Shown in pieces: positions 1,093 to 55,866 of a stretch of DNA of 64,000 nucleotides. The DNA lies in the NCBI RefSeq assembly GCF_002196705.1, contig NZ_NADJ01000040.1, forward strand, positions 496,001 through 560,000, written 5' to 3'. The notes under the pieces are model-generated. The model saw nothing but the letters and a program-made list of their open reading frames with translations. It searched no databases and was not told the DNA's origin. Position numbers and translations under genes: made by a program. Within the stretch, counting starts at the first letter, position 1, and each line of letters starts with the position of its first letter. Origin of the DNA: Desulfosporosinus sp. FKB. Its GTDB lineage: Bacteria; Bacillota; Desulfitobacteriia; Desulfitobacteriales; Desulfitobacteriaceae.

Positions 1093-1111
1093 AATCAGCA
1101 ATTTGTTCGTT

Positions 1112-1195
1112 TGGCGGCTTGGCAGTCATCAGCTTTACCTGGGAAGACCCATAGCTTTGCGTCCTTAGTTTTCACTAAGTTTGCCCTTATCGCAA
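1112..1195 (-). promoter_or_regulatory. Cyclic di-GMP-I (GEMM) riboswitch aptamer
   Basis: Read on the minus strand, this region shows the GEMM-I landmarks in order. GGGCAAAC comes first, then a stem CTTAG/CTAAG capped by a GAAA-type tetraloop, then the conserved GGACGCAAAGC, a GGGTC arm, and finally GATGACTGCCAAGC with its tetraloop-receptor side. The spacing matches clostridial GEMM-I aptamers. It sits 99 nt upstream of the small cysteine-rich gene, with a terminator between. The call rests on sequence pattern only; a covariance-model search was not possible. Confidence 0.82.
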
Positions 1196-9347: not shown

Positions 9348-9442
9348 TGATTGATGGAACGCCGTATGAGGTGAAAGTCTCACGTACGGTGTGGAGCAGG
9401 GGAAAAAGTGGAGATTGTATCAAAGCCTTACCTATTGCTATG
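9348..9442 (+). mobile_element. Group II intron remnant (domains V and VI)
   Basis: The core GCCGTATGAGG-TGAAAG-TCTCACGTACGG at about 9360-9391 is a textbook group II domain V hairpin with a GAAA-type loop. It is followed by a domain VI-like stem and an end CTTACCTATTGCTAT with a bulged A before the 3' splice site near 9441. No intron-encoded reverse transcriptase and no 5' GTGCG end are found nearby, so this is a 3' fragment. Confidence 0.72.
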
Positions 9443-55705: not shown

Positions 55706-55817
55706 AAAGCCCCGCAGCCGTTCCTAAGAACTTCCACAGGGCTTTTGTCCCACACGGTGTAGTTGGGTATTATCCAACCTGTGTTGCTCGGTCCAGACCC
55801 AGTACGGCGGAACCCTT
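55706..55817 (-). promoter_or_regulatory. ykkC-class riboswitch, probably ppGpp-sensing, ahead of cimA
   Basis: Read on the minus strand: AAGGGTTCCG (55817-55808), GGACCGAGC, ACACAGG, a variable hairpin TTGG/CCAA, ACACCG, and the hallmark GGGACAAAAGCCC (55751-55739). These are the conserved blocks of the ykkC family. The AAAGCCC can instead pair with GGGCTTT (55706-55712) in a competing hairpin, so ligand binding should free the transcript (ON switch). Subtype 2a members (ppGpp) often control branched-chain amino acid genes, which fits cimA; PRPP or guanidine subtypes are not excluded by eye. Confidence 0.78.
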
Positions 55818-55836
55818 AACACACTTCTTGCAGTCT

Positions 55837-55866
55837 ATTATATGACACAAAACCCTTGATGTACAA
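55837..55866 (-). promoter_or_regulatory. Likely promoter of the cimA leader
   Basis: TTGTAC (55866-55861) and TATAAT (55842-55837) with an 18-bp spacer, about 20 nt before the riboswitch. Confidence 0.65.

Follow-up and report, generated by a model that had tools for sequence, protein, structure and literature searches.

The cimA gene, encoding citramalate synthase, is preceded by a riboswitch of the ykkC family; the existence of this RNA is established, and by homology it is probably of the ppGpp type (subtype 2a), with ppGpp as its predicted ligand. We regard it as quite likely that the leader is a ppGpp-sensing riboswitch that turns cimA on. An earlier note on this DNA had proposed a ppGpp (2a) riboswitch, a reading supported by a higher score on the 2a than on the 2b model (63.0 versus 40.4 bits), by the presence of C49, and by a score on RF00442 (52.8 bits) below the cut-off of that family. 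Judged from its sequence, the leader belongs to a 2a variant that is specific to the lineage and in which the lower P3 helix is remodelled. Control of branched-chain amino acid genes by 2a riboswitches is known and has been reviewed (PMC7266159), and the cimA leader, with its predicted ligand and predicted gene control, would add to this known kind of control a member displaying lineage-specific P3 variation. Most likely, a known control system has here been extended in a sensible though rather ordinary way. In the literature searched, which lay outside the primary 2018 gene list (PNAS 2018), no paper was found to join citramalate synthase, a riboswitch and ppGpp.

Organization of the cimA leader

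Within the window, that is, the whole 64,000-nucleotide stretch of DNA analyzed, the interval 55706-55866 given in the earlier note covers very nearly the span from a -35 box to the end of a hairpin. The closest named relatives of the source genome belong to Desulfosporosinus. Along the minus strand, a promoter-like site is followed by the ykkC-family aptamer, an overlapping hairpin, a ribosome-binding site, and cimA (Table 1). Two promoter-type sites were found in the scanned region against 1.3 expected by chance, and a TATAAT-like box at the same spacing is retained in Desulfosporosinus leaders; transcription from TGTACA-17-TATAAT would begin a few bases 5' of the aptamer.

Table 1. Features of the cimA leader, with coordinates in the window
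Feature	Coordinates	Strand	Basis or remarks
Sigma-70-like promoter TGTACA-17-TATAAT	55837..55865	-	10/12 consensus bases matched
ykkC subtype-2 aptamer, ppGpp (2a)-like (P0, P1, P1a/P1b, P2, P3)	55726..55829	-	R1 63.0, R2 40.4, RF00442 52.8 bits
P0 5' strand AAGAA	55825..55829	-	last A = A5; G6 = 55824
GGGTTCCG block	55815-55808	-	sequence
Conserved GGGUUCCG block (P1a/P1b)	55808..55815	-	sequence, RF00442 match and alignment
GGACCGAGC block	55786..55794	-	G48 = 55787, C49 = 55786; RF00442 match and alignment
ACACCG block	55760-55755	-	sequence
ACACC (A74-C75-A76-C77-C78)	55756..55760	-	C75 = 55759, C77 = 55757
Remodelled P3, CC-GUGU-GGGACAAAAGCCC-UGU-GG, then linker AAG	55731..55757	-	sequence and alignment
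GGGACAAAAGCCC block	55751-55739	-	sequence
P0 3' strand UUCUU	55726..55730	-	sequence; shared with terminator hairpin
Terminator-like hairpin	55706..55745	-	12 pairs, AA/GG mismatches, 4 pairs, UUAG loop, short U run
Ribosome-binding site GGAGGGG	55675-55669	-	ahead of cimA
cimA, citramalate synthase, 534 aa	54060..55664	-	TIGR00977 626.6 bits, cut-off 450

All of the ykkC-family blocks claimed in the earlier note were located on the minus strand, at 55815-55739, and several positions of the binding pocket resemble those of 2a RNAs (positions are given in T. mathranii numbering, aligned via the primers and text of PMC6031431). Firstly, position 49, a published marker that is A in guanidine-I RNAs and a pyrimidine in the ppGpp type (PMC6031431), is a C, and thus the pyrimidine of a 2a RNA; C occupies this position in 26 of 30 amino-acid contexts while U does so in 22 of 26 purine contexts. 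Secondly, C75 in ACACC, the expected partner of the ppGpp guanine (PMC6031431, PMC10687018), is invariant across 17 aligned cimA leaders. Thirdly, a P0 helix with A5-G6 and a purine-rich 3' linker is present (AAGAA-G / AAG-UUCUU). This linker, which follows GG and reads AAG in the window, CAAG in relatives and AAAG in Desulfosporosinus ilvE leaders, fits 2a RNAs (NARG), unlike the 5-nt GUAGG of PRPP RNAs, albeit with AAG here rather than ARGG. Additionally, compensatory changes across species are observed in two P1 pairs, and the downstream gene, assigned as cimA by TIGR00977, is of the amino-acid and branched-chain kind expected of 2a.

The window contains other RNA matches as well, including a c-di-GMP-I-GGC riboswitch (1109-1194, minus strand, 66.4 bits), a group II intron (9357-9441, plus strand, 62.3 bits), and two TwoAYGGAY RNAs (RF01731; 53550-53699 and 53834-53994, plus strand, 48.7 and 50.2 bits). 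The latter two lie in the convergent gap 3' of cimA, within a direct repeat of 247 nt (92% identical, spacing 290); since a tandem pair occurs at the same place in genomes G001 and G009, and up to 14 matches are found per Desulfosporosinus genome, TwoAYGGAY behaves like a repeated element.

Subtype assignment and the remodelled P3 helix

In a scan of 801 bases, the only meaningful Rfam match was RF00442 (guanidine-I; 52.8 bits, E 1.9e-8), for which the gathering cut-off is 63 bits. Scores on this model lie at 77.6-94.8 bits for genuine guanidine-I RNAs from the same order. Such a sub-cut-off score is normal for subtype 2, as the ilvE and purE leaders of Desulfosporosinus score about 38-56 bits. 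Rfam alone left the subtype undecided, its sole meaningful match being to guanidine-I below cut-off. T-box control of cimA was considered and dropped, there being no T-box match at gathering threshold in the window and none at E up to 10 in the 801-base scan.

Subtype was scored with two models that contain no cimA sequences: R1, for 2a, was built from ilvE leaders, and R2, for 2b, from purE leaders, all taken from the same order. On these models, both derived from one lineage, the window aptamer scores 63.0 bits with R1 (E 1.9e-12, 331 kb searched) and 40.4 bits with R2, the PRPP model. The R1 and RF00442 matches both lie well outside chance expectation. The scoring proposed in the earlier note, which had named a best score to guanidine-I or PRPP as grounds for refutation, thus gave neither outcome. 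The R1-R2 margin of the window aptamer, +22.6, lies above those of 26 of 26 purine-context controls (maximum +12.0). Within the same order, margins range from +42 to +72 for ilvE-type RNAs, from -75 to -37 for purine RNAs, and from -5 to +13 for guanidine-I RNAs above the Rfam cut-off; the cimA-leader class spans +21.5 to +33.8, with the exception of one degenerate leader, L107, at +14.2. An outside check of 56 RNAs, drawn by R1 score from the phylum's other families and sorted by downstream gene (ten genes were searched against Pfam, of which L201 gave no match, and the others classed by N-terminal sequence), yielded -13.4 to +12.0 for purine genes versus +9.8 to +53.4 for amino-acid genes. 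By this measure, the window aptamer sits clearly on the amino-acid side of the distribution. On R1, the cimA class scores approximately 40-60 bits below the Desulfosporosinus ilvE leaders. A divergent ykkC-like RNA encountered elsewhere (L103 301-418, genome G049) carries G at position 49 and a GGCAUAAAAGG core, lies ahead of what looks like a CutA1 gene, and matches neither subtype model well (R1 21.3 bits, R2 25.6 bits).

The lower part of P3 distinguishes the cimA leaders. The strand between GCCC and GG reads UGU in the window and CGU in relatives; the same strand is NAGC in ordinary 2a RNAs and N-G-R-C in PRPP RNAs. Having three bases against the four of NAGC, UGU can be aligned with position 96 deleted, its G being paired to U80, while a gap-free alignment instead places the G at 96. 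The best reading of the alignment is that base 96 is missing and that lower P3 is paired C-G, C-G, G-U, U-G, G-(C/U); none of the 17 aligned cimA leaders breaks any of the 8 proposed P3 pairs. Because position 96 is not the usual 2a A, and falls in a shortened and re-paired P3 strand, the subtype call relies upon the whole pattern. Among 398 genomes of the phylum, exact matches to the P3 pattern ACACCGTGTGGGA-N-AAAA occur only in Desulfosporosinus, and one-mismatch sites of the GUGUGGGA pattern outside that genus were found on inspection to lack the surrounding ykkC blocks. Four ppGpp-type leaders of glutamate synthase, a recognised 2a context (PMC5912903), have their P3 core separated from GG by 2-3 bases instead of 4 (L212, L218, L220 and L225), which is another natural loss near base 96.

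Conservation and alternative readings

CimA was found in 25 Desulfosporosinus genomes, in every one of which the leader RNA precedes the gene; ahead of cimA in Ca. Dichloromethanomonas, one Peptococcaceae MAG, and two Gracilibacteraceae MAGs, the RNA was not found. Well conserved leaders, scoring 57-73 bits on the 2a model, are present in 22 of the 25, one of them (G022) with part of the CCGAGC block missing; the remaining three are degenerate (38.7-45 bits). These three (L254, L255 and L256, the sequence of L255 being identical to that of L107 from Desulfosporosinus fructosivorans) lack the GGGUUCCG block and carry differing alterations of CCGAGC, while P1, P2, P3 and the hairpin are kept. 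They may represent either aptamer decay or a further variant, and their existence shows that the aptamer is not strictly required.

Four other readings of the leader were weighed. It is possible, though unlikely, that the Desulfosporosinus cimA leaders constitute a ykkC sub-variant of their own, whose re-paired P3 and deleted base 96 alter affinity or specificity for a guanosine alarmone (pGpp, ppGpp, pppGpp) or another ligand, such that the remodelled P3 would bind a ppGpp relative (pGpp, pppGpp, a nucleoside diphosphate, or the 2d ligand). The inner P3 strand is indeed unlike that of all 2a RNAs compared outside Desulfosporosinus, and the P3 pattern is confined to that genus among the 398 genomes; however, the remaining contact positions are those of 2a, and the glutamate-synthase 2a leaders shorten the same strand. 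The subtype models cover 2a and 2b; as to 2c (NDP) and 2d, the gene context here is one of branched-chain amino acids rather than of NUDIX, HAD or EamA/TauE genes (PMC7266159).

Sensing of PRPP (2b), with the G of UGU (55737) acting as G96 and pairing with C75, appears very unlikely. Although UGU, aligned without a gap, does place G at 96, and PRPP and ppGpp aptamers may differ by a single base (PMC6031431), the R2 score is just 40.4 bits, C rather than U occupies position 49, the N-G-R-C/GG-GUAGG pattern is lacking, and the G at 55737 lies in a U-G pair of P3 in 17 of 17 leaders. In addition, cimA has no purine connection, and a canonical PRPP-type 2b RNA (L003), scoring 119.7 bits on R2, stands ahead of purE in this genome.

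Highly improbable, too, is a vestigial aptamer, in which the conserved hairpin would merely attenuate cimA, and the ligand response would be lost or weak in this strain. The mutated P1a/P1b blocks of three species that keep P3 and the hairpin, as well as the short U tract in the window, are consistent with this reading, but every conserved block is intact in the window and P1 shows compensatory changes across species. Lastly, a guanidine-I riboswitch, suggested by RF00442 being the sole meaningful Rfam match, is excluded by C, not A, at the published marker position and has negligible probability, given also the score below the cut-off and below genuine members of the order, the P0 tails, and a gene unconnected with guanidine.

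Predicted switching and relation to known systems

The AAAGCCC/GGGCTTT pairing described in the earlier note as a competing hairpin corresponds to the base of the hairpin at 55745-55706. The 5' arm of this hairpin (55745-55734 and 55731-55728) takes in the P3 3' strand and the start of the P0 3' strand, and P0 shares 55730-55728 with the GUUC/GAAC part of the hairpin; since the arm uses these strands, the hairpin cannot coexist with P3 and P0. Despite a 3' arm that varies between species, the hairpin is retained in 21 of 21 leaders examined. In the window, the hairpin alone is predicted at -23.3 kcal/mol, and a longer segment at -27.6 kcal/mol, where shuffled sequences average -16.6 and none of 200 dinucleotide shuffles is as stable. 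The minimum free energy fold of the entire leader forms the hairpin and not the aptamer, the bare secondary structure of which is -21.4 kcal/mol (ViennaRNA), a value that excludes the ligand contribution. A strict intrinsic-terminator scan of the region found none, as the U tract is short; it is UUU in the window and four to six residues in most relatives, so termination here may be weak.

The arrangement of hairpin and aptamer fits an ON switch, by analogy with the ON-switch behaviour shown for a ppGpp riboswitch (PMC10687018). In the proposed mechanism, nascent RNA without ligand would form the hairpin, and transcription would end early. Upon amino-acid shortage, RelA/SpoT enzymes, three family members of which are encoded in the same genome, would increase ppGpp, the guanine of which would pair with C75 while its 5' pyrophosphate is gripped by A5/G6 and the 3' linker. 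Ligand would thereby hold P0 and P3, the hairpin would be blocked, and cimA would be transcribed.

A canonical 2a RNA (124.6 bits) precedes ilvE-ilvB-ilvN-ilvC-leuB in the same genome, the genes having been identified one by one, and the two switches acting together would upregulate a large part of the citramalate pathway to isoleucine in starvation. The statement of the earlier note that starvation would directly switch on isoleucine supply goes too far, as the genome also has a strong match to TIGR01127 (threonine ammonia-lyase, 542 bits), so that CimA may not be the sole source of 2-oxobutyrate.

If the 2a reading holds, direct, protein-free control by ppGpp would also act on the step at which the citramalate route to isoleucine begins, and the two ppGpp-type switches of one genome are suggested to cover much of that route. 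The leaders also offer a natural test of how well a ykkC RNA tolerates the loss of base 96, the position separating ppGpp from PRPP binding, and three relatives provide cases in which an aptamer may be decaying while its hairpin persists.

Among known systems, the cimA leader most resembles the ppGpp (2a) riboswitches, as represented by the Clostridiales oral taxon 876 switch and ilvE leaders, with which it shares the P0-P3 architecture, A5/G6, G48/C49, A-C-A-C-C, a purine-rich 3' linker, the opposition of P0 and P3 to a terminator, and a branched-chain amino acid gene. It differs from these in its lower P3 strands (GUGU / (C or U)GU versus GU / NAGC), in lacking the usual A96, in the short U tract of the window, and in its gene, cimA being so controlled, as found here, only in Desulfosporosinus. 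With PRPP (2b) riboswitches it has in common the fold, the P0 helix and most conserved blocks, but not N-G-R-C/GG-GUAGG with G96, U at position 49, a purine gene, or a high 2b score (40.4 bits). With guanidine-I RNAs (RF00442) it shares the core GGGUUCCG, CCGAG and GGGA-AAAA-GCCC blocks, and is set apart from them by C rather than A at the marker position, an extra P0 helix, a sub-cut-off score, and an unrelated gene.
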